This document shows, one piece after another, positions 37,205 to 62,950 of a DNA stretch of 64,000 nucleotides. Positions within the stretch are counted from its first letter, which is position 1; every line of letters begins with the position of its first letter. The notes under the pieces were generated by a model, which worked only from the letters and a program-made list of their open reading frames with translations, was not told the DNA's origin and did not search any database. The position numbers and the translations under genes were made by a program. Source of the DNA: a virus; IMG/VR virus record IMGVR_UViG_3300025383_000018, positions 1 through 64,000 of that record; one strand, 5' to 3'.

Positions 37205-40200
37205 ATGGCAACCACATCCAGACAAAATAGTCTACTTGTTAATCAAGATTGGACAAGATTATACGAAAGCTTTAGGAACGCAGATTTTCAAAGCTATGAC
37301 TTTCAAACCTTGCGCAAAAGCATGGTTGATTATCTACAACTTTATTATCCCGAGGACTTCAATGATTTTGTAGAAAGCAGTGAGTATATTGCTTTATTGG
37401 ATTTAATTGCCTTCTTGGGACAAAGTTTAGCATTTCGTACAGACTTAAATGCCCGTGAAAATTTTATTGATACCGCACAACGCCGTGACAGTATTCTTAA
37501 ATTAGCCAAGTTAGTTAGTTATGTTCCTAAACGTAATCAAACAGCATCAGGTTATTTGAAATTTGTCAGTGTCCAAACCACTGAGCCAATAAGTGACAGC
37601 AGTGGTATTGATATTACCAATGCTATTATACGCTGGAATGACAACACAAATATCAATTGGTATGAACAATTTGTGTCGGTTATTAATGCATCTTTGCAGT
37701 CAAATCAATACATAGGTAAACCCAGCAATAGTCAAACTATCAACGGGGTAGTAAATGACGAGTATCAGATCAATACACCCGCAAACAACTTGCCAGTGTA
37801 CGCATTTCAAACACAAGTTGAAAGCACAAGCTTGAATTTTGAAATCGTCAGCGCCAGTAGTGTGGGTAAAGACTATATCTATGAAGTAAGTCCACAACCT
37901 AGTGCACCGTTGAATATTCTTTATAAAAACGATAACTTAGGCAATGCCAGCAACAACACTGGATTTTTTGCTTATTTCAAACAAGGTTCATTGCAAAATG
38001 TAAATTTTGGAGTGACTGAAAGTGTACCAAATAATCTAGTCAGTATCAATTATAACAATATTAATAATACTGATGTTTGGTTGTATGAATTGTCCAATGC
38101 AGGTACTGTTCGTTATGAGTGGACACAAGTTCCAGCAGTGGCTGGTGTTAACATTATCTATAATAACAATTCTGCACAAAAAAGCTTTCAAGTGAATACT
38201 CGCAACAATGACCAAATTGATTTAGTATTTGGCGACGGTACTTTTGCACAAATTCCACAAGGTAGTTTTAGAACATACTTTAGAACCAGTGCAGGCCTTG
38301 CATATAAAATTACTCCAGATGAAATGCAAAACATCAAATTGAGTATTCCCTATGTCAGCAGAGCTGGCAGATTGGAAACACTGACCATAGTTGCAAGTTT
38401 GAAGTATACTATTGCCAATAGCATCGCCACTGAAAGTATTAAAGATATCAGTACAAGAGCTCCACAACAATACTATACACAAAATCGTATGGTTACTGGA
38501 GAAGATTACAATACTTTCCCTTATGGTTATTTTAACAGTATTAGTAAAATCAAATCTGTTAACCGCAGTAGCAGTGGTGTAAGTAGATACTTGGATGTAA
38601 TTGACACTACAGGAAGATACAGTAGTACAAATATATTTGCAGATGACGGTGTTATCTATAAAGAAGATGCCACTAGATATTTTGATTTTACTTGGAATAC
38701 AACTGCAGACATATTAAAAGTAATTGATAATCAGTTAACTCCTATCATCGAAAATTCGTCGATGGCTCATTTTTATTACGAAAACTTCAATCGTTTTAGT
38801 TTAACAAATATGGCCTGGAATAGAACTACAGTTGCTACAGGAGCAAGTACTGGTTATTTTGTAAGCAGTACCGGAACTCCACAAGCAATTGGAAGTGATG
38901 TAAGCGGCAATAACTCTTATCTAACACTTGAAAGTATCGTAGTGTTTAGTCCTGGCACAGGCAACTATTTTAATAGTCAAAATGAAATAGTAGCATTACC
39001 TGCGTCTGGGGTATTACCTCCCAACGGACAACCGTTATTATATGTGGCAGTAACACAATTAGTAGGAACCGGTGCTCAAGGCGTGTTAACATCAGGTCTT
39101 GGTCCAGTAACTCTGAGCCAAAATGTACCGTCTGGTGCAATTGCAACCACAGTTATTCCAAGTTTTAGTAACTCTTTTAGCAGTACATTTGTTGCTACTT
39201 TAATTAAACTAATACAAAGTTACACAGAGTTTGCGATTCGATTTGACCAAGCTACCAACAGTTGGGCAATTGTTTCTTTACAAAACATAAATTCTACTAA
39301 GCCTTTTAGTCAAGCCAATCAAGGTTCATCCAATGGCACTAACAGTGACAGCAGTTGGTTACTGAATTTTACAGTCAATGACTTAATTTATACAGTGACT
39401 GCTCGAGGACTTAGTTATGTATTTGAAAGTGCAAACCAAACTAAATTTTATTTCGACAAACAAGTTAAGATTTTTGATAGTGTAACTGGATCAACAATAC
39501 ACGACTTTGTTAACGTACTAAAAGTAAACGGAGACCCAGATACAAATCAACCTTTGCAGGAAAACATCACTTGGTTTATTGACAATCAAGTAGCAGAAAG
39601 CGACGGTTATGTTGATAATAGTAAAGTGTTAATCACATTTGCCGATTCTAATTATAATGGCGTTCCCGACAATCCAGATATATTCAAAACCATTGTTCAA
39701 CCCGATGTTGATGTTGCCAAGAAGTTGGTATTCTTCCAAAAAACGTATGGTTACGATAGTTTTATTACCTATACACTAGTCGACAATACCACGGTAAATG
39801 TTGAATATCCTAATCAACAAAGTATCAAAAATAAATTAGCAAACTATCTGGACGGTCAATTGTTCTACGCCACAGATGAACAAAATTTTTACTTGTTATC
39901 AGTGACTAATGGGGTCTATAGCTTATCGGCCACTGCAGATTATATTGTAAAAACTGGAAGACAGGGTTTATATTTCCAATACAGACACAATGCTCCAGGA
40001 AACAGACGCATAGACCCAAGCCCCAGTAATCTTATTGATATGTATATTCTGACAACTCAATACGAAAGAGACTATATTTCTTGGGTAACAGACACAACCG
40101 GTGCGATTGCAGAACCCAGTGTACCAACTAGCGAAAGTCTTAGACTGTTGTATAATGACTTGGAAAATTATAAGAGTGTAAGTGATGCTATCATTTATAA

Positions 40201-40609
40201 TTCTGCTACATTCAAGCCTTTGTTTGGCTCTAAAGCAGATTCTACACTACAAGCTACTTTCAAAGTAATTAAAAATTCAAATGTAAATGTAAGTGACAGC
40301 GAAATTCGCAGTCAAGTGCTAATGTATATTAACAATTACTTCAACACCAGTAACTGGGATTTCGGCGAAACTTTCTACTTCACTGAATTAGCCACTTATA
40401 TTCAACAAGCAATGGCACCTAACATCAGTAGTATCATTATCGTTCCTAACACTGCTGGTCAAATTTATGGTAGTATGCAACAGATTAGCAGTGGGCCAAA
40501 TGAAATATTAATCAGTTGTGCCACTGTTGAAAACATTGAGGTAATCACTGCTATCACCGCCGCTCAATTGAACCTACAAAATCAATTGGTAAATACTATT
40601 ATAAACTAA
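37205..40609 (+). CDS. 6: Baseplate wedge protein gp6
   Basis: 1134 residues (T4 gp6: 660). The N-terminus has RKSMVDYLQLYYPEDFNDFV, ESSEYIALLDLIAFLGQSLA and FRTDLNARENFIDTAQRRDS, the canonical gp6/BplC start; middle QQYYTQNRMVTGEDYNTFPY and the C-terminal YINNYFNTSNWDFGETFYFT fit the wedge iris region. About 450 extra residues lie in the middle. Own late box AATAAATA at 37180-37187 and a weak CGGGA ribosome binding site. Confidence 0.95.
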   Translation: MATTSRQNSLLVNQDWTRLYESFRNADFQSYDFQTLRKSMVDYLQLYYPEDFNDFVESSEYIALLDLIAFLGQSLAFRTDLNARENFIDTAQRRDSILKLAKLVSYVPKRNQTASGYLKFVSVQTTEPISDSSGIDITNAIIRWNDNTNINWYEQFVSVINASLQSNQYIGKPSNSQTINGVVNDEYQINTPANNLPVYAFQTQVESTSLNFEIVSASSVGKDYIYEVSPQPSAPLNILYKNDNLGNASNNTGFFAYFKQGSLQNVNFGVTESVPNNLVSINYNNINNTDVWLYELSNAGTVRYEWTQVPAVAGVNIIYNNNSAQKSFQVNTRNNDQIDLVFGDGTFAQIPQGSFRTYFRTSAGLAYKITPDEMQNIKLSIPYVSRAGRLETLTIVASLKYTIANSIATESIKDISTRAPQQYYTQNRMVTGEDYNTFPYGYFNSISKIKSVNRSSSGVSRYLDVIDTTGRYSSTNIFADDGVIYKEDATRYFDFTWNTTADILKVIDNQLTPIIENSSMAHFYYENFNRFSLTNMAWNRTTVATGASTGYFVSSTGTPQAIGSDVSGNNSYLTLESIVVFSPGTGNYFNSQNEIVALPASGVLPPNGQPLLYVAVTQLVGTGAQGVLTSGLGPVTLSQNVPSGAIATTVIPSFSNSFSSTFVATLIKLIQSYTEFAIRFDQATNSWAIVSLQNINSTKPFSQANQGSSNGTNSDSSWLLNFTVNDLIYTVTARGLSYVFESANQTKFYFDKQVKIFDSVTGSTIHDFVNVLKVNGDPDTNQPLQENITWFIDNQVAESDGYVDNSKVLITFADSNYNGVPDNPDIFKTIVQPDVDVAKKLVFFQKTYGYDSFITYTLVDNTTVNVEYPNQQSIKNKLANYLDGQLFYATDEQNFYLLSVTNGVYSLSATADYIVKTGRQGLYFQYRHNAPGNRRIDPSPSNLIDMYILTTQYERDYISWVTDTTGAIAEPSVPTSESLRLLYNDLENYKSVSDAIIYNSATFKPLFGSKADSTLQATFKVIKNSNVNVSDSEIRSQVLMYINNYFNTSNWDFGETFYFTELATYIQQAMAPNISSIIIVPNTAGQIYGSMQQISSGPNEILISCATVENIEVITAITAAQLNLQNQLVNTIIN

Positions 40610-40621
40610 TCAGAACGAGTT

Positions 40622-43600
40622 ATGCCAATTACAAAAACGGTAAATCTGTTACCAGGAACATTCCAAAGTGAAACTAATAAAAAGTTCTTAAATGCAACTT
40701 TAGATCAGTTAGTAACCGAAAGCAACTTAAAAACAATCAGCGGATATGTAGGTCGCAAGTTTGCTCCTGGGTTTGAATCTATTACAAACTATATCAGAGA
40801 ACCTGACTTAACTCGAGCCACTTATCAACTTGAGCCTAGTGTTGCAGTAACAGATCCTGCGACTCAGGACATAGAGTTTCATGTAACTTATCCCGAAGTA
40901 CTACAACAAATTAGTTATTTTGGCGGAAACGTAACAAATCAAAGTAGACTGTGGGACAGCGAGTACTACAGTTATGACCCGCACATTAATTTAGATGCGT
41001 TTATCAACTTTACACACTACTATTGGGTACCTGAAGGACCTGATAGTGTATTCGTAAGTGCAGGCAACATCTACTTAAATTCAGAAATTACAGTATTTCC
41101 TATTGATAGTCAGGGTGTTTACAATTTTAGCAATTGGAATCAAATTGCCAATCCTGACTTGGTGTTGGCCAAAGGGTATGCGTATAATTTTCACGTTAAT
41201 CAGCCAGGTAAGCCTTTTTGGATACAGAATGTTATAGGTGAATTCGGCACACATCCTAATATTGCAGGAGTAACAAATAACGGTATCGATACAGGTACCA
41301 TTACTTTTGTAGTTCCAACAGACGCAACACAAGGTACTTACTATTATCAAGACGGAGTAGTTACCAGTGAGCAAGGAACTATTCGTATTATTGATCCTGC
41401 AGTCAACACTATAAATGTTGAAACCGACATATTGGGACAAACACGTTACATCAGCCCTAATGCAGTTGAATTTGTCAATGGTCTTAAAGTTAGATTTGAC
41501 AATACTGTAATACCAGAAACATATCAAAATAAAGAATATTATGTCGAAGGTGTGGGTACCGGTATTAAACTAGTAGATGTTCAAACGTTGTTAAATGCAG
41601 AGACTGGATCTTTGGGATCCACAGTTAAAGATTATATAACAATCAATAGAGCCAGCAGTGATGTTAATCCTTGGAGCACTAACAATCGTTGGTTTCACCA
41701 AGATGTAATCACAGGCAGTAATGTCCCTACAGTGCCATTAACTGCAGACGAAACAGTATATCCTTATCCATTGGCTGCAAATTTAACTGCAGATACAGAT
41801 TTTATTACTGCGGATCAAACAGAAAGATCCAGTCCACAATTAAAAGGCCTTGCAAGAGCCAATAGACCTATTATTGAATTTGAAGCAGACTTAAAATTAT
41901 ATAATTTTGGTACCACTGGTATTACTCCAGTTACTCTATTAGATACCACAGTAACAGAACCTTTTTTAACTTTAGAAGGCAGTAAAGTTAAGTCAGTCAA
42001 TGGTATAGTTACTACTACCATAGACGGTGTGCCTTTGACAAACGGAATGACTGTGATTTTTGCTGCAATGCAAAATCCAAAAACTCCAGAAACTGTATGG
42101 AAAATAAATTTTGTTGACGAAATAGGAATAGCCAACACAGATGTCAAAACAATACATTTATCATCAGTTACTGCGGCAACTGAAAATACCAGTGTCACAG
42201 TTACCAGTGGTTTGAAAAACAGCGGTAGTTATTATTACAATGGTGTAAATTGGATTCGTGCACAACAAAAAACATCAGTGAATCAACCGCCGATGTTTGA
42301 TGTATTTGATGTAAACGGTGTTAGCTTTGGTGATACTGCAGTTTACCCTGGTAGTAATAGTTCTGCGTTTTTTGGTACAAAAATCTTTAGTTATGGAGTT
42401 GGCACAGGTGTTGCCGACAAGGAACTTGGATTCCCACTGGTCTATAAAAATATCAATAATATAGGTGATATCGAATTTGTTAATAATTTTGACAACGATA
42501 CATTTGTTTATACTGTTGATAAAGTCAACTACACTGACAAAGTAAATCGTGGATACTTATATAAAAATGAAGGTTCTTCATCGTTTGAAAAATTAAATGT
42601 ATGGCGTACAGTAGTCGAGCACAGTAAACAATATCAGGATATAAGTTACATATTTGACGGCATTACAAACTCATTTGCTATAGATGTTCCTCCTGCAACA
42701 GATGCAATAATTCCTTCTTTGTTGGTATTTGTAAACTATCAAAAATTAACAGTTGCAAGATATACTGTAACTGCTGGACCGAATAATACACAAATTGTTG
42801 TTATAGATTCAACAATTCTTAAAGATTCCGATAGAATAGATATTTTGGTATACAGTACACAAGTGAGCCAATTTGGTACTTACGAAGTTCCTGGCAACTT
42901 AAACTTCAATGCTCAAAATGCTGTGTTAACTACCCCAACATTGGGAGATATGAGAAATCATATAAACAAACTAACGCAAAACAGTACAAAATTCTTGGGT
43001 CGTTATCCAGGTGTTAGTAATTTAAGAAATATTGATGTAGTAGGGCAAGGCGGAACTATTCTGCAACAAAGCGGACCTGTTACTTTGGCATCAATGTTCT
43101 TGACAGATGACAAATTAAATTTTGTTAACAGCATCAAAACAGCACAATTTGAGTATGCAAGATTTAAGAATAAATTTATAACCTTTGCTGGTAACAGTAA
43201 CCAATTGGTTTTTAATACTGCTGCTGAAAGTGTTGATTATATTCTAAAACAAATTAATAAAGCCAAGAACAAAACATTCCCTTGGTACCACAGTGATATG
43301 GTTCCTTACGGGGACAATAAAACAATTACCACACATAAAGTAATAGAAGCAGCCATAAGAAATTATGAAATCAGCAGTATTTTTAGCCCTACTACTTTAA
43401 GCAGTCGTGCAATTTTAGTTTACCATAACGGATCGCAACTGTTGTTAAATCGTGATTATACGTTTATGACCAATAGTGCTGGTGTTAGTTTATCATCCAG
43501 TGTTACGCTAGCCATTGGGGATCTAATAGAAGTAGTTGAATATCTAAGTACAGATGGCAATTATATTCCAGAAACGCCAAGTAAATTAGGATTATATCCA

Positions 43601-53783: not shown

Positions 53784-55046
53784 ATGTCGTATACAATAAA
53801 TTTAACCGATGGCACAACACTATCTACTATAGCAGATGGTACAGTTGATAACACTTCTACCAGTTTAGTACTGATTGGTAAAAACTTTTCCGGTTACGGA
53901 CAATTTCTTAACGACAATCTAGTTCACTTACTAGAAAACAGCAGTGCAAGCACACAACCAGCTCCAGCTTTGGCGGGACAATTGTGGTGGGATAATATTA
54001 ATAATAATCTTAATGTTTGTACAGATGGTGTACACTTCAAAACATTGGGCAGTACTACCAGCAGTAGTAGCCAACCATTGAATCCTGTAACTGGAAATGC
54101 GTGGTGGGATACTGTTAACAATCAACTTAATGTATGGAATGGTTCTTCGTGGGTTCTAGTAGGCCCAGCATTTACTACTACAAACGGAACAAGCGGTACA
54201 ATTGTAACTACCATCGTAGATACACAAGTTCCTCCAGTTAGCCATACTGCAGTAGAATTATTTGTTGGTAATCAATTGGTTGCTATTTTTAGCGGTACAC
54301 CAAATGTGTATACTCCAGCAACTCCTATTTCAGGTTTTTCAACCATTAAACCTGGTATTAATTTAATTGATCCAGGTGTATTACCTGGTTCTTCTTTTTA
54401 TGGCACAGTTACTCGTGCAAGTGATGCAGACTTATTTGGCAATGTTGCACCAAGTCAGTATGCAAGAGTTGATCAAACAAACACATTCACACATCAAAAT
54501 ACTTTTTCAGCAAACGCCACTTTCAGTAGTCCAGTGATACTGAATGGTGGAGTAGTAGCCGGCGGTAGATTAGGCCCGTCTGGCTATGCGCTGACTAGTA
54601 CAGGCACAGGTGTTACTTGGGCTAATGTATCCACAGGAGGTGGCGGCGGGCCTGGCGGAAGTGGTCCACAAGGCCCACAAGGCCCACAAGGCCCTTCAGG
54701 TCCTTCGGGTGCAGCTAGCACAGTAGCCGGACCATCTGGCCCAAGCGGCCCTCCTGGTCCCCAAGGAACGTATGTTGGTACCACTAGCCATGGTTATTGG
54801 CGGTTAAATAACGGTCTTTTAATCCAGTGGGGAAATATTAACACTGATGCAGATGGCCCACAAAATGAAACAGTTACTTTTCCTGTTGCATTTAATATAA
54901 TTGTATCTGGGCTAGTAAGCCCGTACGCAGGACCTGGCGGAGTAGGGCAAGGCCCGTTTTACTTCAATAATTTCACTGGCACAGGGTGTACTATAAATAC
55001 CACCGGTACTAAAGGTTTGGCATCTTGGCTAGTTATCGGCTATTAA
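53784..55046 (+). CDS. Collagen-containing tail fibre with gp53-like receptor-binding C-terminus
   Basis: 420 residues. The N-terminal anchor module (YTINLTDGTTLSTIADGTVD, LIGKNFSGYGQFLNDNLVHL, GQLWWDNINNNLNV) is shared with the tailspike gene at 55448. The LWW/WWDT segment is repeated once (AWWDTVNNQLNV). A short collagen stretch ([13 protein letters not shown]) follows at about residues 290-330. The C-terminus reads GYWRLNNGLLIQWGNINTDA then ENVTFP-like ETVTFPVAFN and WLVIGY, the recurrent small fibre head domain (GL-x-I-QWG...VTFP-(I/V)-AF...IGY). A late TAAATA box lies at 53759-53764. Probably the principal receptor-binding fibre, with the next gene as its chaperone. Confidence 0.87.
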   Translation: MSYTINLTDGTTLSTIADGTVDNTSTSLVLIGKNFSGYGQFLNDNLVHLLENSSASTQPAPALAGQLWWDNINNNLNVCTDGVHFKTLGSTTSSSSQPLNPVTGNAWWDTVNNQLNVWNGSSWVLVGPAFTTTNGTSGTIVTTIVDTQVPPVSHTAVELFVGNQLVAIFSGTPNVYTPATPISGFSTIKPGINLIDPGVLPGSSFYGTVTRASDADLFGNVAPSQYARVDQTNTFTHQNTFSANATFSSPVILNGGVVAGGRLGPSGYALTSTGTGVTWANVSTGGGGGPGGSGPQGPQGPQGPSGPSGAASTVAGPSGPSGPPGPQGTYVGTTSHGYWRLNNGLLIQWGNINTDADGPQNETVTFPVAFNIIVSGLVSPYAGPGGVGQGPFYFNNFTGTGCTINTTGTKGLASWLVIGY

Positions 55047-55060
55047 TTTAAGGAACAATT

Positions 55061-55438
55061 GTGACAATTTCATACTCTCCATCAACTAAAGGATTTTATA
55101 GTAGTGATATTAACTATATCAATCCAATCCCCAACGATACTATAGCAATATCCGACGAACTCCATCTAGAATTACTAGTTGGTATGGCAACATATGGCAA
55201 TGCTATTGTAGTAGCCAATGGAGTCGTTAGTTTAAGTCCAGTAATTGTTAGCAACGATGCATTGGCAGCAAAAGCTAGATCTAAACGTAATCAATTGATA
55301 TCACAAACAGATTGGACACAAGCAGGTGATGTGCCAGAAGCTATAAAAACTAAATGGGCTGCCTATCGTCAAGCACTTCGTGATATTCCGCAACAAGCAG
55401 GATTTCCAAATAACATAACTTGGCCTACGAGCCCTTAA
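55061..55438 (+). CDS. Tail fibre assembly chaperone
   Basis: 125 residues from a GTG start with TTAAGGAA upstream. The C-terminal half has ARSKRNQLISQTDWTQAGDV, AAYRQALRDIPQQAGFPNNI and TWPTSP, the hallmark of small phage tail (fibre) assembly chaperones (RN-x-LL-x-x-(S/T)-D-W-(T)...YRQALRD-(I/L)-P...WP). It lies directly after one fibre gene and before the tailspike, as such chaperones usually do, and probably helps the fibre tip trimerise. Confidence 0.88.
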   Translation: MTISYSPSTKGFYSSDINYINPIPNDTIAISDELHLELLVGMATYGNAIVVANGVVSLSPVIVSNDALAAKARSKRNQLISQTDWTQAGDVPEAIKTKWAAYRQALRDIPQQAGFPNNITWPTSP

Positions 55439-55447
55439 TATCTTACT

Positions 55448-58279
55448 ATGGCATATACACTAAAATTAGCAAATGGATCAGTATTGACTGTAGTTGCAAA
55501 CGGTACTATCAATACTACTGCAACTACTTTGCCAATGATAGGACAAAATTACACAGGTGATTTTGGTTCTATTATTGATGAAAATTTTATTCATCTATTA
55601 GAAAATTTTAGTAGTAATGCTGCACCAGCCAATCCATTAACTGGGCAAATTTGGTTTAACAGTAGCACAAAACAACTTAATGTGTATTACAGTGGAAGCT
55701 GGCACACAACTGGTAATACCGGCGGTAATACTGGCCCAGACGGGACCGGTATACAAGGTGCTCAAGGCCCAACTGGTGCTCAAGGCCCAACTGGACCAAC
55801 TGGACCCAGTGGACTTAAAGGACCGCAAGGTCCAGCTGGTTTATCTGGGCCACAAGGTCCACAAGGTCCAAGCGGACTCAGAGGACCACAAGGTCCAGGT
55901 GGCACAGGTCCTACAGGTCCGTCAGGCCCATCTGGTCTAGCAGGAACAACTGGGCCACAAGGTCCACAAGGACCGCAAGGATCACCTGGGCCGTCTTCAT
56001 ATGTCTATAGTGTAAAAAGTTATGGTGCAGCAGGCAACGGGACCACCGATGATACTCTTGCCATTCAAAGTGCAATTAATGCTGCACAAGTAACTGGCGG
56101 AACAGTATTTTTTCCTGCAGGCACATACAAGATAACCAGTGCATTAAATTTAATAGTCCCTTCATTAGGGTATTATGGCGGAGCTACTCCAGCACACGGG
56201 GTCAGAGTTCACTTGTTAGGTGAAGGCCCAGGAGCGTCTACGATTTATCAAGCGACTCGAACTGCCACTGGTCTAAATGTTTTCCCTAGCTCTTCTACAG
56301 ATTTTGGCGTTGGTGTTGTTATATCTGGATTAACTTTGTCGGGCGGGGGCGCAAGTACTGGCTCAATACCAAGTACCGGTGCTGGTTTGGTCCTAAAGAG
56401 CTTATGGTCAGTATCTGTTCGAGATTGTGAATTTATAAGTTGGAATCAAGCTATTGTCGGAACAAACTTAATAAGTTCCAAATTTGACCGCAATATTATA
56501 TCATTTAATCAAATGGGATTTAATATTTCTCCCTCAACTGTATCTGGCACTGCAGTGGCTGAATCAAATGCTATAGAGTTTAATTCTTGTACAGTTTCAA
56601 ATAATCTTACTTATGGCGGATGGGTAACCGGTGCCGGTACATTTAATTTTATCGGCGGCAGTATTGAAGGCAATGGTCCTCCAACAAGTCTTGGTGCTGG
56701 TTGGGGATTGAGAATTAGTAATTCCGGCGGCAATGGTGCAGCAGGATCTGGAGTTGGTTTTGCACTTCACGGTATTTACTTTGAAGGTAATGGCGGAATA
56801 GCAGCGTTATGGGTAGATCAAACTGTAAATAGACCAGGTATTTCTGCAACTATTACTGGATGCGATTTCCATCATTTGGCAAATGCATACGCAACAAGTC
56901 TGTTGTTTTTGCAAGCATCAGTCGACTCTTACGCATTTCCAATAGCAATAATAGGAACAGGGTTTGCCACTACAATCGGTGGATATACTCCTACATCATC
57001 AAGACCTGCAATTAACAATTACAATCAGGCATTTCCATTGTCATTAGTTGCTTGTAATTTTGGCAGTAGTGTAGATCAATATAATCTAGGCAACGGTAAT
57101 AGATTTGAAGATGGTGCAGAAATTGTAACCCATAGAAATTCTGCAGGTGCACAAGTTGGTGGAGCAGTATTAAGAGTCGGCAATCCGGTAACCGGGCAAG
57201 AAACAGGGTGGGTTGGTAATCCAAATGCAGGCGATCTAGTAGGTGTTTACTCATATATGGTAGGCGATTCTACCCATACAAGAGTATGGAGTATGAATCC
57301 TATTGTCGATTCTGCGAACGGTGCAACATCTTGGGTATTAGAAGGAGATATGAATTCTACTGTCAATGCTCCTGATCCTAGAACAGTAGGACATAATTTA
57401 GGTGTTGATATGATGTCCGGCGGTTCTGCAGCTCCTAGTGCAGCATTTTTAGCTGGATCTACTTCGACGTCGAATCGTTGGAAGCACGGTATGTGGTTCG
57501 ACGGAGTGGGCGGACAAACTGGTTCTACACTAATAAAAGCAGCCAATACCACTTCAGGTGTTACTGTAGATTATGGATTAGATCTAAGTCTTGCTAACAT
57601 AAATTATCAAGGTGTACGTGTGGGAGCAACTTCTCCAGTACAAAATACACCGGTTGGACTAAGACAATTTGGTAATCAGCCTGGATACGATACACTATTT
57701 TTACAAAGATCCTCAGACTCTTCTCCTGTAGGATACTATGTTAGGGGTGTAAATGCTGCTAACAGTCAAACAGTATTTGCAATTAGTACAAATGGTACCA
57801 TTACTGCATCTACTGCACAATTTACTGGTAATACTGCAACAAATGTATTGATAGTTAATACCAATGCTACAATTGGTAGTTCTTTAACATTGAGCGGTAG
57901 TTTGTCAGCAAACGGTTCTATAGGTGCAAACGGACAAGTATTAACTTCTACGGGCACAGGAGTCCAATGGACTACACCGTCAGGCGGCGGCAGTAGTTTC
58001 AATGGCGGGTATGTAACTAACCCTATTACACTTATAACCGGCGCAACATTGGGATTGAGTGTTGTTGGTAATGTTGGTGTTAGCGGAAATTTACAAATAT
58101 CTGGAGCAATCAATGCCGGCGGCGGGTACGGCACAAGCGGACAAGTATTAACTTCTACGGGTACAGGAGTCCAATGGACTACACCTGCCACCGGAACTGT
58201 TAGCCTTGGCGGTAGTGATTTAGATTTTGGAGATATCAATAGCTCAAATCCTGTTGATATTGATTTTGGAAACATATAA
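55448..58279 (+). CDS. Tailspike-like protein: collagen stalk plus pectate-lyase-type beta-helix
   Basis: 943 residues. The N-terminal module ([40 protein letters not shown]) is the same anchor as in the 53784 gene. Collagen repeats follow at about residues 95-180. Next, [40 protein letters not shown] is the start of the pectate-lyase-3 family right-handed beta-helix used by capsule- and LPS-degrading tailspikes; the helix runs to about residue 640. Catalytic residues cannot be assigned by eye. The C-terminal 150 residues are fibre modules with two copies of [16 protein letters not shown]. It is 9 bases after the chaperone gene. Confidence 0.87.
55755..55995 (+). repeat. Collagen-coding repeats in the tailspike
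   Basis: [13 protein letters not shown] and GPQGPQGS triplets encoded by ggtccacaaggtcca-type units. Similar blocks occur at 54660-54770 and 58450-58685. Confidence 0.85.
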
Positions 58280-59445
58280 ATATAAAATATACTCGAGAAT
58301 ACAGCAATGGCATTAAAATTTAGAAAAGGCACTGCTTCACAAATAGCTAACGTAACCCCTGCGTTAGGTGAACCGGTCTGGGCGACAGACACTTATACAC
58401 TCTATATGGGTGACGGAACCACGGCGGGCGGTCACGCAATATCAGGAACACAAGGCCCGCAAGGCGCACAAGGTCCTACTGGACTTAGAGGACCGCAAGG
58501 ACCATCGGGTGCGTCCGGCCCAAGCGGACCATCGGGTGCATCTGGTCCACAAGGACCAAGCGGACCATCAGGCGTATCTGGACCACAAGGACCAAGCGGA
58601 CCATCGGGTGCGTCTGGCCCACAAGGACCAAGCGGACCATCGGGAGTATCTGGACCACAAGGACCAAGCGGACCAAGCGGTCCTACTTTTAATGGCGGAA
58701 TTGTAACATCTGCCATTACTATTATATCTGGCGCAGCACTAGGATTAAGTGTTGTTGGTAATATTGGTGTTAGCGGAAACCTACAAGTATCTGGCGCACT
58801 CAAAGCAGGTAGTAATTATGGTACAAGTGGACAAGTATTAACTTCTACAGGTACCGGAGTGCAATGGTCTTGCTCTTCTGGCGGCGGTGGGTCTGGGGCA
58901 CAAGGACCACAAGGACCGCAAGGACCGTCAGGCCCAAGCGGTGGCGGCTCATTCTCAGGCGGTTATATAGCTAATGCAACTACTATTTTAAGTAGTGCAC
59001 CTGTTGCATTATCAGTAGTGGGCGGTGGTCAATTTGGCGGTAACTTAGGTATCGGCGGCGGAATAAGAGATAATAGTTTCTCATATGGCACAAGTGGACA
59101 AGTACTATCTTCTACAGGCACTGGAGTCCAGTGGACTACGGCATCAGGTGGTTCTGGGATATCAGGATTACATTGTGATACGTGTCCAAGACTTGGCGGG
59201 AATCTGAATTTATTTAATCATAGTATTGGTGGTACTGGTAACGTACAAGTCTATGGTGGCATAAGCGGTCTTACTGTCACTTCTTTTGGGGATGCGTCAG
59301 TATTTGGAAATCTGTCAGTATATGGTAATATTGCAATATTTAATAATAGAGGCATAATCGATAACAATTATTCGCTTGGCACAAGTGGACAAGTACTATC
59401 TTCTACAGGAACTGGAATACAATGGATTACAGCGTCAGGTGGCGG
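57932..59445 (+). repeat. Dispersed [14 protein letters not shown] coding repeat
   Basis: Five copies of a roughly 55-base repeat (ggacaagtattaacttctac core) at about 57932, 58129, 58819, 59089 and 59378, spread over two adjacent fibre genes, plus a diverged copy near 54590. They mark module boundaries. Confidence 0.8.
58275..58282 (+). promoter_or_regulatory. Exact T4-type late promoter TATAAATA
   Basis: Plus strand ACATATAAATATAAAATATA overlapping the stop codon of the tailspike gene, 24 bases before the next fibre gene. Confidence 0.8.
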
Positions 59446-59695
59446 CGGTGGGTCCGGCATAACATCAGTTTCACAAGATACCAATCCTTCATTGGGCGGC
59501 AGTTTAAGTTTGAACAACCACAATATCACTGGTACAGGCGGAATTAGTATAACTGGTACAGTTACTGCTACTCAAGCTAATATCGGCGGAAATGCAGTAG
59601 TAACTTCTAGCCAAACTAGAAACATATTTGTAAGTAGTTCAGCACCATCATCGGGGCAAGGTGCTATTGGCGATATTTGGATTAAATATAGTTAA
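58307..59695 (+). CDS. Collagen-like tail fibre with modular repeats
   Basis: 462 residues. Begins [20 protein letters not shown] then [18 protein letters not shown], a fibre N-terminal domain widespread in phages (RRGT..Q...P..GEP.(F/W)..D...L..GDGTT). Two collagen stretches (about residues 48-125 and 200-215) with [12 protein letters not shown] repeats. Then three 60-90-residue modules each ending GTSGQVL(T/S)STGTG(V/I)QW. The first is nearly identical to a module in the preceding tailspike. C-terminus: [13 protein letters not shown]-type [20 protein letters not shown]. An exact TATAAATA box (58275-58282) overlaps the stop of the previous gene, so it has its own late promoter. Confidence 0.85.
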
Positions 59696-59697
59696 AA

Positions 59698-61104
59698 ATG
59701 AGTGATACCATTCAATCAATCCAAGCCAATGTAAATTCTTACTTAACTGTATACGGCACTGATCCCAACTATACTCACGTTGCAGATGCAGGGATGACCC
59801 CTCCGCAGATCTCAACTGCGTATAATATGCCAGCTAGCAATGGCGCTGGTGTAAAAGTTGGTGTTATTAGTTTGGGTGGTGGATTTTTACAAAGTGATCT
59901 TAATAGTTCGTTATCGGACATAGGCTTGACTGCTCCTACCATACGAAAAGTTTTACTCGATGGAGCATCTGGTGTTTTTAATCCATCAGATAACGGCAGC
60001 GGAGAAAATACTTTAGATTTATATTGCGTGGCAGGATTAGTTCCATCAGCTAATATTTCAATTTATATATCAGGCGGAATTCTTCCAAGTTTATTTGCAG
60101 ATCCAGTATATGCAGCAAGTTATAATGCTGCGCATCCAACAGGATTTGCAAATGCAGTCCAAAGAGCGATCGACGATAATGTTGATGTTATTAGTATTAG
60201 TTGGGGGTATGCTGAAAAGTTAGTTCAAAGCGGGACTTCATATTATTTAGGTGATTTTCTTGCTAATACTTTTGCCAACGCAGCCGCAAAAGGCATAACC
60301 GTTGTTGTAGCATCAGGCGACAACGGATCGGAGCCAACTACCGGTACTCCTTTAACAGAAGTGCAATACCCTGGCTCAAGCCCTAACATAATAAGTGTAG
60401 GCGGAACGCATTTATCTTTTGGTACAGGAAATGTACGTGCAAGTGAAGTACCAGAATCTCATGCAGTTGATCCTGGATTTCCAACTACTTGGGGCGGTGG
60501 TGGTGGATTGAGTACTTATGTACCAGTGCCAAGTTGGCAGTCAGGTCTTACTTATAGAACTTATCAAGCATCTACAAATACAACAGGTAGTCCTACTTCA
60601 CTAACATACAGAGGTGTGCCTGACATAGCTGGTCCCATGAATGCCTATGGATTGTATATGAATGGTTCTATCGGCGGATTTGGTGGTACCAGTGCAGCCG
60701 CACCAATGATGGCTGGTATGATAGCACGTTATGTAGCATTAACAGGCAAACGACCAACACAACCATTGGGACCGTTATTTTACGGTAATACCACTGCTTT
60801 CTACGATATTACAACAGGTAACAATGATACAAATGTAAGTATTATTGGTTATGCATCTACTGTAGGATGGGATCCGGTAACCGGATTGGGTGCACCTTAC
60901 AGTGATTTAGTGTATAATATATATTCCAATGCAATAGGTAGTAGCGGTAATGTTGTTTCCACTGGTTCTAATATACGTGTCAAAACAGATGCAACTACGT
61001 GGGCTAATGTTACTGCAGTATATGTTAAAACAGATGCAACTACTTGGAGACCTGCTAACATAAGTACAAAAACTAATTCAACTACTTGGCAAGGAATTTT
61101 TTAA
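59698..61104 (+). CDS. Sedolisin-family (S53) serine-carboxyl protease, phage-encoded, no propeptide
   Basis: 468 residues. The catalytic domain begins almost at once (MTPPQISTAYNMPASNGAGV, KVGVISLGGGF), where cellular sedolisins have their mature N-terminus after a roughly 180-residue propeptide; no propeptide is encoded. Catalytic residues are all visible: GSGENTLD gives Glu103 and Asp107 (E-x3-D), VVASGDNG gives Asp208, GGTSAAAP gives Ser332. The calcium site DITTGN (Asp370) and GWDPVTGLGAP is intact. Residues 425-468 hold three repeats of (V/I)(R/Y)VKTDATTW type, resembling a fibre C-terminal module, and there is no signal peptide. It starts 2 bases after a fibre gene stop. Probably a virion-associated or fibre-processing protease. 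Confidence 0.92.
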   Translation: MSDTIQSIQANVNSYLTVYGTDPNYTHVADAGMTPPQISTAYNMPASNGAGVKVGVISLGGGFLQSDLNSSLSDIGLTAPTIRKVLLDGASGVFNPSDNGSGENTLDLYCVAGLVPSANISIYISGGILPSLFADPVYAASYNAAHPTGFANAVQRAIDDNVDVISISWGYAEKLVQSGTSYYLGDFLANTFANAAAKGITVVVASGDNGSEPTTGTPLTEVQYPGSSPNIISVGGTHLSFGTGNVRASEVPESHAVDPGFPTTWGGGGGLSTYVPVPSWQSGLTYRTYQASTNTTGSPTSLTYRGVPDIAGPMNAYGLYMNGSIGGFGGTSAAAPMMAGMIARYVALTGKRPTQPLGPLFYGNTTAFYDITTGNNDTNVSIIGYASTVGWDPVTGLGAPYSDLVYNIYSNAIGSSGNVVSTGSNIRVKTDATTWANVTAVYVKTDATTWRPANISTKTNSTTWQGIF

Positions 61105-61116
61105 GGAGATTCTAAA

Positions 61117-61293
61117 ATGACTGAACAGAAAAAATCAACTAATCCATTTATTAATATGGCCAATGCAGCCAAAGCAGCTGCAGCGCAACCAAAAGTTCCA
61201 GGTTCAAAAACATCAGCAGTACAGGCTGCAAAATTCAAACCACAAGTACAAATGAATAGACCGACAAAACGTGCTGCGGGACGTGGCGGTTAA
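61117..61293 (+). CDS. Small basic Ala/Lys-rich protein
   Basis: 58 residues: NPFINMANAAKAAAAQPKVP, then KFKPQVQMNRPTKRAAGRGG at the C-terminus. Strongly basic, Ala-rich and probably unstructured or DNA-binding. An ideal AAGGAG lies 9 bases before the ATG, 12 bases after the protease stop, so it is the last gene of the rightward late operon. I recall similar small NPF...MNRP...GRG proteins in T4-like cyanophages without known function. Its stop codon shares TTAA with the stop of the convergent gene. Confidence 0.75.
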   Translation: MTEQKKSTNPFINMANAAKAAAAQPKVPGSKTSAVQAAKFKPQVQMNRPTKRAAGRGG

Positions 61294-61544
61294 TTCTTAC
61301 TAGTATTTCCCCACTTTAGGGCCCAGTAAGTAGCAAGATCGGGCTCTAAATTAGCAGTAATATGTACTCGATACCCATATGTTCTATGGTCGAGACTTAC
61401 AGTCCATTGGGGATCGGGTCGACTATTTTCCATAATCCATCGACCTGCATCAGTTTGTTGCCATTGCCAAACTGGCTCAGCAGCATAAATCTCAGGATCT
61501 TCACAGTCAGACATAGTAAAACTGTGCACAACTAATTTTGTCAT
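61290..61544 (-). CDS. Conserved hypothetical phage protein
   Basis: 84 residues: VHSFTMSDCEDPEIYAAEPV, WQWQQTDAGRWIMENS, TYGYRVHITANLEPDLATYW, ALKWG. This text pattern (VH-x-F-(S/T)-M-x-D-x-EDPE-(I/V)-YAA-x-P-(V/I)-W-x-WQQT) is one I know from aquatic T4-like phages as a conserved protein of unknown function. The start overlaps the thyA stop by four bases (ATGA), so it is translationally coupled to nucleotide metabolism genes. Confidence 0.78.
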   Translation of the reverse strand: MTKLVVHSFTMSDCEDPEIYAAEPVWQWQQTDAGRWIMENSRPDPQWTVSLDHRTYGYRVHITANLEPDLATYWALKWGNTSKN

Positions 61545-62440
61545 ACTGCCATTGGTGCGTGTATTGCACTGTGAGATTGATAATTATCCAGTCGGATATC
61601 ACTCATAGTAAACTTATCGATATCAGTAATATCAGGATTTAACCAAAGTTGTGGCGCAGGCAAGGGTTCACGCTTCAATTGTTCTTTTGCCTGATCTACA
61701 TGGTTTAGGTATATGTGTGCGTCGCCTAGTACGTGAACGAACTCTCCTACCTGTAATTCGCACACTTGAGCTATCAGATGCGTAAGCAAGGAATAGCTGG
61801 CAATATTGAAAGGTACACCTAAAACCATATCACAACTTCTTTGATACATTTGGCAACTTAGTCGGCCATCTGTAACAGAGAACTGCGCAAATACGTGGCA
61901 AGGAGGTAATGCCATTTGATCTAACTCTCCAGGATTCCACGCACTTAATATATGTCTGCGTCCGTTGGGATCGCTTTTAATTCCTTCGATTAACTGTACA
62001 AGTTGATCTATTTCATAACGATCTGCGGCAACACGGGTACCTCCTAAATGAGCAGGGCCCATATCTTTTTGTTCTGTATATTTCCTCCAGTGCCTCCACT
62101 GTACTCCGTATATACGACCTAAGTCTCCATCATAATTGGCTCGAGGTTGCCAATATGGTGCTGTGGCATTGGCAGTCCAGATGGTGTCTTTCACTGAGTT
62201 TCTATCCCCGTGTAAGATTTCCCGTAGGCGTCGTTCGTCCCCTGAACCTTCAATAAACCACAACAACTCTGATACAACACTACGCCACGCTAGTTTTTTA
62301 GTAGTAACTGCAGGAAAGCTTTGACTGAGATCATAGCGTTGTTGCATACCGAATAAACTAATAGTTCCTGTTCCGGTTCTATCCGATTTAGTCGTGCCTT
62401 GGGTTAATACTTGCTCTAGCGCAGTTAAATATTGTTGCAT
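61541..62440 (-). CDS. td: Thymidylate synthase (ThyA type)
   Basis: 299 residues. Converts dUMP to dTMP with methylene-tetrahydrofolate. Visible: SDRTGTGTISLFG, phosphate-binding PNGRRHILSAWNP (Arg161-Arg162), catalytic Cys181 in MALPPCHVFAQF, QRSCDMVLGVPFNIASYSLL, HIYLNHVDQAKEQL and an intact C-terminal APMAV. A full-length, probably active enzyme, paired as in T4 with dihydrofolate reductase. No intron is present, unlike T4 td. Confidence 0.97.
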   Translation of the reverse strand: MQQYLTALEQVLTQGTTKSDRTGTGTISLFGMQQRYDLSQSFPAVTTKKLAWRSVVSELLWFIEGSGDERRLREILHGDRNSVKDTIWTANATAPYWQPRANYDGDLGRIYGVQWRHWRKYTEQKDMGPAHLGGTRVAADRYEIDQLVQLIEGIKSDPNGRRHILSAWNPGELDQMALPPCHVFAQFSVTDGRLSCQMYQRSCDMVLGVPFNIASYSLLTHLIAQVCELQVGEFVHVLGDAHIYLNHVDQAKEQLKREPLPAPQLWLNPDITDIDKFTMSDIRLDNYQSHSAIHAPMAV

Positions 62441-62443
62441 AAT

Positions 62444-62950
62444 TTAATATGAATTAAAAGGATTGATGTTTTTGTAAGTAGTCCAGTTACACTTCCTATC
62501 AGTACTAGGAGCTGCACCTGTTGCTCTGAATAAGCTCAAATACTTTCTCAAGTCAATTTGAACATCTACTCTACATTGAGTTTTGAAATGCGTAATATGT
62601 GCTTCTTGCACAATATCTTTTGTGGCCATTAAAATATCTGGCCCACCTATAATCCAAACAGTCTTGGTGGGATTTTCTGCTTGTATATTTTTAACACGTT
62701 CAGCTATGTCACCTCGAATTGTTTTTACACCGTGACCAAATAAAGGCCTATTGGTAACTACGTAAGTAGTCCTGTCGGCCAACGGCTTAGGCATCTTGGG
62801 ATCATCCCAGGTCTTACGACCCATTATGACTATATGTCCCTGTGTTTGTTCTTTGAAGTATTGTAAATCTTCGGAATGACTGGGCCACGGTAGTGTACCG
62901 TTAAAGCCCATTCCACCCCAATAATCTACAGCAAAAATTGCCTTGATCAT
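62444..62950 (-). CDS. frd: Dihydrofolate reductase
   Basis: 168 residues (T4 Frd: 193). AVDYWGGMGFNGTLPWPSHS with EDLQYFKE holds the folate-site acidic residue, IVIMGRKTWDD is the NADPH-binding loop, and VWIIGGPDIL the GG motif. Regenerates tetrahydrofolate for ThyA, 3 bases downstream. Its ATG overlaps the previous stop (ATGA). Confidence 0.95.
   Translation of the reverse strand: MIKAIFAVDYWGGMGFNGTLPWPSHSEDLQYFKEQTQGHIVIMGRKTWDDPKMPKPLADRTTYVVTNRPLFGHGVKTIRGDIAERVKNIQAENPTKTVWIIGGPDILMATKDIVQEAHITHFKTQCRVDVQIDLRKYLSLFRATGAAPSTDRKCNWTTYKNINPFNSY

Follow-up and report, generated by a model that had tools for sequence, protein, structure and literature searches.

Sedolisins (MEROPS family S53) act at acid pH and are textbook zymogens, typically made with a large N-terminal propeptide that lies outside the catalytic domain. 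The enzymes of phage tails mostly cut glycan or peptidoglycan. Catalysis by the sedolisin kumamolisin uses a protonated Asp164 (PMC5935664), and sedolisin prosegments have been reported to assist folding in a chaperone role (PMC6278154). S53-like proteases are encoded in the giant-virus metagenome assemblies Homavirus, Barrevirus, Sylvanvirus, and Terrestrivirus, which are further cases of an S53-type fold in a virus, although these are viruses of eukaryotes and their proteins are longer and encoded outside a tail cassette. A serine protease gene among baseplate or tail genes is likewise found in T4-like cyanophages, whose S8 subtilisin-like proteases (phrog_9158/phrog_3677) differ in their His-Asp-Ser triad and belong to another sequence family; in cyanophage S-H38, the S8 protease gene sits between baseplate wedge genes. 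The location of the S8 protease of Atu_ph07 was not found in the two stretches searched for it. No paper describing a phage sedolisin was found in the literature searches made.

Here, we describe a sedolisin gene in a 64,000-nucleotide stretch of DNA from a large, uncultivated virus of bacteria (the window), which is positions 1 to 64,000 of the 83.8-kb IMG/VR record IMGVR_UViG_3300025383_000018. The gene belongs to a widespread viral sedolisin family with no match in a collection of some 50,000 deposited genome records of phages. New here are a propeptide-less viral clade, its coupled loss of the residue corresponding to kumamolisin Glu32, and a protein in which an S8 and an S53 domain are fused.

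The record encodes a T4-type major head protein (gp23-type) that is 66-69% identical to those of jumbo phages, together with a gp20-type portal, a 3981-aa structural protein, and a baseplate wedge that is 34-36% identical to the wedges of Atu_ph07, CBB, GAP32, and their kin. On these protein similarities, the window phage is placed among the T4-superfamily jumbo phages (GAP32/CBB/Atu_ph07-like). The contigs that hold two S53-bearing relatives measure 345 and 357 kb, and the window record is a fragment. The cassette runs from the baseplate wedge through the giant structural protein and four fibre or fibre-assembly genes to the S53 gene (Table 1). In Atu_ph07, a giant structural protein likewise lies behind the wedge gene and is followed by smaller genes, where the window has its fibre and fibre-assembly genes. 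The S53 gene starts with ATG two bases behind the stop of the preceding fibre gene, the gap that the first-pass annotation had given. Its placement in the tail cassette stands as well, but the cassette does not end exactly there; the sedolisin is the last big gene of the tail-fibre block and is followed by a 58-aa ORF, which is Ala/Lys-rich and has a strong ribosome-binding site. The cyanophage S8 protease family phrog_9158 and the 3981-aa structural protein have a C-terminal domain in common (E=4.8e-6, window 41141-41350).

Table 1. Features of the tail cassette and of the sedolisin gene, in window coordinates.
Feature	Position	Strand	Basis or remark
Baseplate wedge subunit	37205..40609	+	phrog_10646; jumbo-phage wedge identity
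Virion structural protein, 3981 aa	40622..52567	+	phrog_10938
Tail fibre with gp53-like C-terminus	53784..55046	+	Domain match
Tail fibre assembly protein	55061..55438	+	Phage_tail_APC E=2.5e-23, phrog_188
Tail fibre/spike, collagen repeats and pectate-lyase-like domain	55448..58279	+	Domain matches
Fibre gene upstream of sedolisin: Mtd_N, collagen repeats, GDIW-type C-terminus (GDIWIKYS)	58307..59695	+	
S53 (sedolisin) gene, 468 aa	59698..61104	+	Kumamolisin match, AlphaFold2/Foldseek
N-terminal stub, residues 1-31, where the propeptide usually sits	59698..59790	+	Kumamolisin alignment; viral stubs
Mature catalytic domain, residues 32-402	59791..60903	+	Kumamolisin alignment, AlphaFold2 model
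Ser58, at the kumamolisin Glu32 position	59869..59871	+	Alignment of relatives
Catalytic Glu103	60004..60006	+	Invariant in 148/148
Catalytic Asp107	60016..60018	+	Invariant in 148/148
Oxyanion Asp208	60319..60321	+	Invariant in 148/148
Nucleophile Ser332	60691..60693	+	Invariant in 148/148
Calcium-site region D370-I371 ... W391-D392-P-V-T-G396-L-G398-A-P400, to residue 400	60805..60897	+	Conserved with kumamolisin; model
C-terminal three-fold K-T-x-x-T-T-W repeat module	60978..61101	+	Repeat analysis
58-aa basic ORF after sedolisin	61117..61293	+	Good ribosome-binding site; only in near-identical L001/L002/L109

The gene had been read as a phage S53 protease with four catalytic residues and a calcium site intact, and sequence and structure comparisons agree. 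Kumamolisin is the PDB match of the window protein in phmmer (E=1.5e-39, residues 31-402), and from residue 31 onward the protein runs in register with mature kumamolisin, beginning at kumamolisin residue 4, which fits the mature-domain start proposed earlier at about residue 32. Glu103, Asp107, Asp208, and Ser332 align with kumamolisin Glu78, Asp82, Asp164, and Ser278, respectively, the equivalent of Trp129 is kept as Trp169, and the calcium site is intact, with DI at residues 370-371 and WDPVTGLG at 391-398. The kumamolisin-type extended active site is incomplete, with Ser58 replacing Glu32. Structure prediction had been suggested as a check, and an AlphaFold2 model from 91 sequences (mean pLDDT 85.7) was found by Foldseek to be closest to kumamolisin structures; kumamolisin-As is the top match in the PDB (E 1.5e-28, TM (target) 0.86), the top 17 are all S53, and S8 subtilisins follow about 12 orders of magnitude behind. 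The catalytic core of this model is mostly at pLDDT 80-99, with a single weak loop near residues 210-220, and the calcium region is at 85-97; an earlier model from 22 sequences had a mean pLDDT of 72 and a poor calcium loop. The gene therefore encodes a genuine S53 domain with its catalytic site intact, and activity is predicted.

In the profile search suggested along with the structural check, Pfam returned Peptidase_S8 (E 1.8e-17), with the S53 model absent among its matches. Automatic annotation would therefore mislabel the sedolisin gene, and it hides the viral family under the name 'subtilase'. Membership in the phage S8 tail protease families phrog_3677/9158 was considered and rejected, as the window protein has S53 residues instead of an S8 His-Asp-Ser domain; these families give a partial, fold-level match only, over residues 149-347. 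Kumamolisin and kumamolisin-As share with the window protein the fold, the Glu-Asp-Asp-Ser site, the calcium site, and an acidic pI, and the mature domains are about 31-36% identical. The window protein is unlike kumamolisin in having no propeptide, Ser for Glu32, a conserved Cys beside the catalytic Asp, C-terminal W-repeats, and a place in a phage tail cassette.

An earlier IMG/VR scan with the window protein as query gave 25 relatives. Scanning with an alignment that included kumamolisin showed that at least 144 IMG/VR loci encode sedolisin relatives, of which 80 were kept, and the viral set after duplicate removal comprised 68 distinct proteins. An alignment holding kumamolisin also found 560 cellular relatives; the 80 that were kept reach no more than 39% identity over the matched part and come from bacteria of soil and water, with many Burkholderiales among them. 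A genome scan with virus-specific patterns found no cellular relatives. Neither the window protein nor a propeptide-bearing viral relative used as a second query had a match in 50,697 deposited phage records, a collection that may lack records very near the window.

The window protein begins with a 31-aa stub, and the propeptide domain Pro-kuma_activ (PF09286) is absent both from it and from the rest of its 83.8-kb record, as expected from the earlier reading that it has no propeptide. The companion observation, that there is no signal peptide, is correct but not distinctive; by a crude hydropathy measure of the N-terminus, applied in the same way to the window protein and the close cellular sedolisins, a strongly hydrophobic N-terminus was present in 0 of 80. 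An extension of 162-477 aa precedes the mature start in 79 of the 80 cellular relatives. The only cellular relative without one (L102:3977-4996) is from a metagenome contig and is possibly a broken gene. The 5' end is complete for 66 viral proteins. In 52 of them the mature start is preceded by 9-51 residues, in 13 by an extension of propeptide length (120-250 residues), and in L154 by an S8 domain. The propeptide-bearing viral sedolisins (L159, L160, L164-L166, L168-L176) likewise lie behind fibre genes and have YPR tails similar to one branch of the propeptide-less clade; they differ in the propeptide-length N-terminus, identified by Pfam as Pro-kuma_activ in the three tested (L160, L170, and L173), and, in 13 of 14, in keeping Glu32. 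Supply of the propeptide in trans was rejected, since PF09286 is missing from the window record and from the 16 searched records that encode propeptide-less sedolisins, two of them the 357-kb and 345-kb contigs; the positive controls, four viral records with a propeptide-bearing sedolisin, all matched. The case against supply in trans in the propeptide-less viruses is strong but not final.

In the tree, one branch separates the propeptide-less viral proteins from the rest (SH-aLRT 100) and a second sets apart all the cellular ones; viral proteins that bear a propeptide fall in the middle, which gives a gradient from cellular with propeptide through viral with propeptide to viral without. The topology was unchanged when the longest branches were removed (SH-aLRT 99 and 100). 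With support given as SH-aLRT only and no independent root, the simplest history would be a single loss of the propeptide, within viruses.

In the kumamolisin structures, Glu32 belongs to a hydrogen-bond network that extends around the active site. The residue at this position follows the same division. It is Glu in all 80 cellular proteins and in 13 of the 14 viral ones with a propeptide, but never in the 54 propeptide-less ones, of which 43 have Ser and 8 have Ala; the numbering was taken from the PDB kumamolisin chain in the phmmer alignment, which has a mutated Ala at this position. A Cys next to the catalytic Asp was gained in the propeptide-less clade (52/54). The Glu/Asp/Asp/Ser tetrad is unchanged in all 148 relatives (80 cellular, 14 propeptide-bearing viral, and 54 propeptide-less viral), and dN/dS values of 0.06-0.25 in 11 pairs indicate purifying selection on the sedolisin. 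Because the propeptide-less proteins form one clade, the losses of Glu32 and of the propeptide count as a single coupled event and not many. The Glu32 loss could mean changed or reduced activity.

A search of other phage genomes for the same neighbour had been recommended, and most viral S53 loci indeed lie directly behind a same-strand gene, usually one for a fibre. An upstream ORF is present in 65 distinct viral loci; it is on the same strand in 62 of them, and S53 starts no more than 10 bp behind a same-strand gene in 57 (median gap 1 bp). A Shine-Dalgarno-like site precedes S53 in 13 of these loci and is absent in 52, so translational coupling is likely, with S53 probably translated by reinitiation after the upstream gene. 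The upstream neighbours belong to recognised tail or fibre PHROGs or, in about half, to two unnamed PHROG families, and most of them end in one of two modules, the GDIWYQTF type (GDIWIKYS in the window) or the DPTPGSGVIAEVITT type.

The C-terminal ends of the viral sedolisins vary among W-repeats, YPR tails, and long extensions. The three W-repeats reported for the window protein were located in the DNA at 60978-61002, 61023-61047, and 61065-61089 (spacing 45 and 42 nt), and the module is weakly modelled (pLDDT about 50). The gene that follows S53 has similar repeats in L004 and L011 only. The first-pass annotation had suggested that the fibre context replaces the propeptide in folding. This is not supported, since W-repeats are absent from a large branch of that clade, whose proteins (about 407-425 aa) end in just a short YPR-type tail and lack a propeptide too; the C-terminal module therefore cannot be a general propeptide replacement. 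A search of the neighbouring proteins for the YPR tail as a shared tag found none. Gly-rich domains with tail PHROG matches are fused to S53 in L136, L021, and L131, and Ig repeats in L125 and L173. In L154, a single 1361-aa phage protein (L154:6071-10159) has an S8 subtilase domain ahead of its S53 domain; on the 345-kb contig, S8 and S53 are encoded by separate genes. L131:9989-14185 encodes S53 with Ig-like modules, Gly-rich modules, and a C-terminal domain weakly matched to the Hint type (Vint, E=0.005) behind it.

We consider it moderately probable that the sedolisin is a tail-associated endopeptidase that cleaves host surface proteins and needs no zymogen, its chemistry being silent at cytoplasmic pH. 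It would be produced late, together with the preceding tail fibre, and carried on or with the tail; such a place in the virion, part of the earlier reading, is favoured by the conserved gene position, the absent Shine-Dalgarno sites, and the tail-module fusions. During adsorption, it may cleave outer-membrane or surface-layer proteins, pili, or a matrix protein. If, as in kumamolisin, a protonated Asp is needed, the enzyme would be nearly silent while it folds in the host cytoplasm, at near-neutral pH, and an inhibitory propeptide would be dispensable; activity would be switched on outside the cell at lower pH. The phage lineage would then have dropped the propeptide once, and the chaperone role of the prosegment would fall to the catalytic domain itself. 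A more tentative proposal is that these proteins form a class of propeptide-free, pH-gated tail proteases, made at neutral pH with the zymogen dispensed with, in which the Glu32 change is compensating and lets the catalytic domain fold alone.

The fibre-maturation enzyme that had also been envisaged, trimming adjacent fibre or baseplate proteins during assembly, would suit the close linkage to the fibre gene and the probable coupling of translation with it. We regard it as possible but rather unlikely; sedolisins are acid-active and assembly is cytoplasmic, the upstream fibres of S53-bearing phages are of at least two unrelated C-terminal types, and the covalent fusion of S53 to differing C-terminal adhesin modules is more in keeping with a tip enzyme. 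Stand-alone proteins of 407-470 aa without a separate anchor domain are numerous in the family, as might be expected of a free enzyme that leaves the cell at lysis and, instead of acting on the virion, breaks down debris, matrix, or competing material. This is unlikely as well, given a gene in the tail cassette and not in a lysis cassette, the coupling to fibre genes, and the tail-type fusions.

With Glu32 gone in the whole propeptide-less clade and no propeptide, the S53 fold could also have been retained merely as the binding domain of a non-proteolytic adhesin. A dead enzyme, however, is expected to lose at least one of its four catalytic residues, whereas Glu, Asp, Asp, and Ser are invariant in all 54 propeptide-less members and dN/dS is low, and we give this explanation little credence. 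An intracellular attack on host proteins in infection would be in keeping with the lack of a secretion signal, but the late structural location, the acid-type chemistry, and the absence of a propeptide to spare the phage's own proteins make it very improbable.

If the tail-associated enzyme cuts protein, surface proteins would be implicated as a barrier or a receptor. The single-loss clade, set beside viral sisters that kept the propeptide, makes the role of the propeptide and its replacement directly testable. As to the genes that lie past the sedolisin, thymidylate synthase-like and dihydrofolate reductase-like genes, named from their sequences, are found on the minus strand directly past the window cassette (61541-62950). 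A TnsA-like endonuclease (L120:4342-4803, Pfam E=3.6e-23) overlaps the S53 gene end in L120, and proteins of 147-154 aa are found at the same position in L130, L132, L134, L148, L151, and L152.
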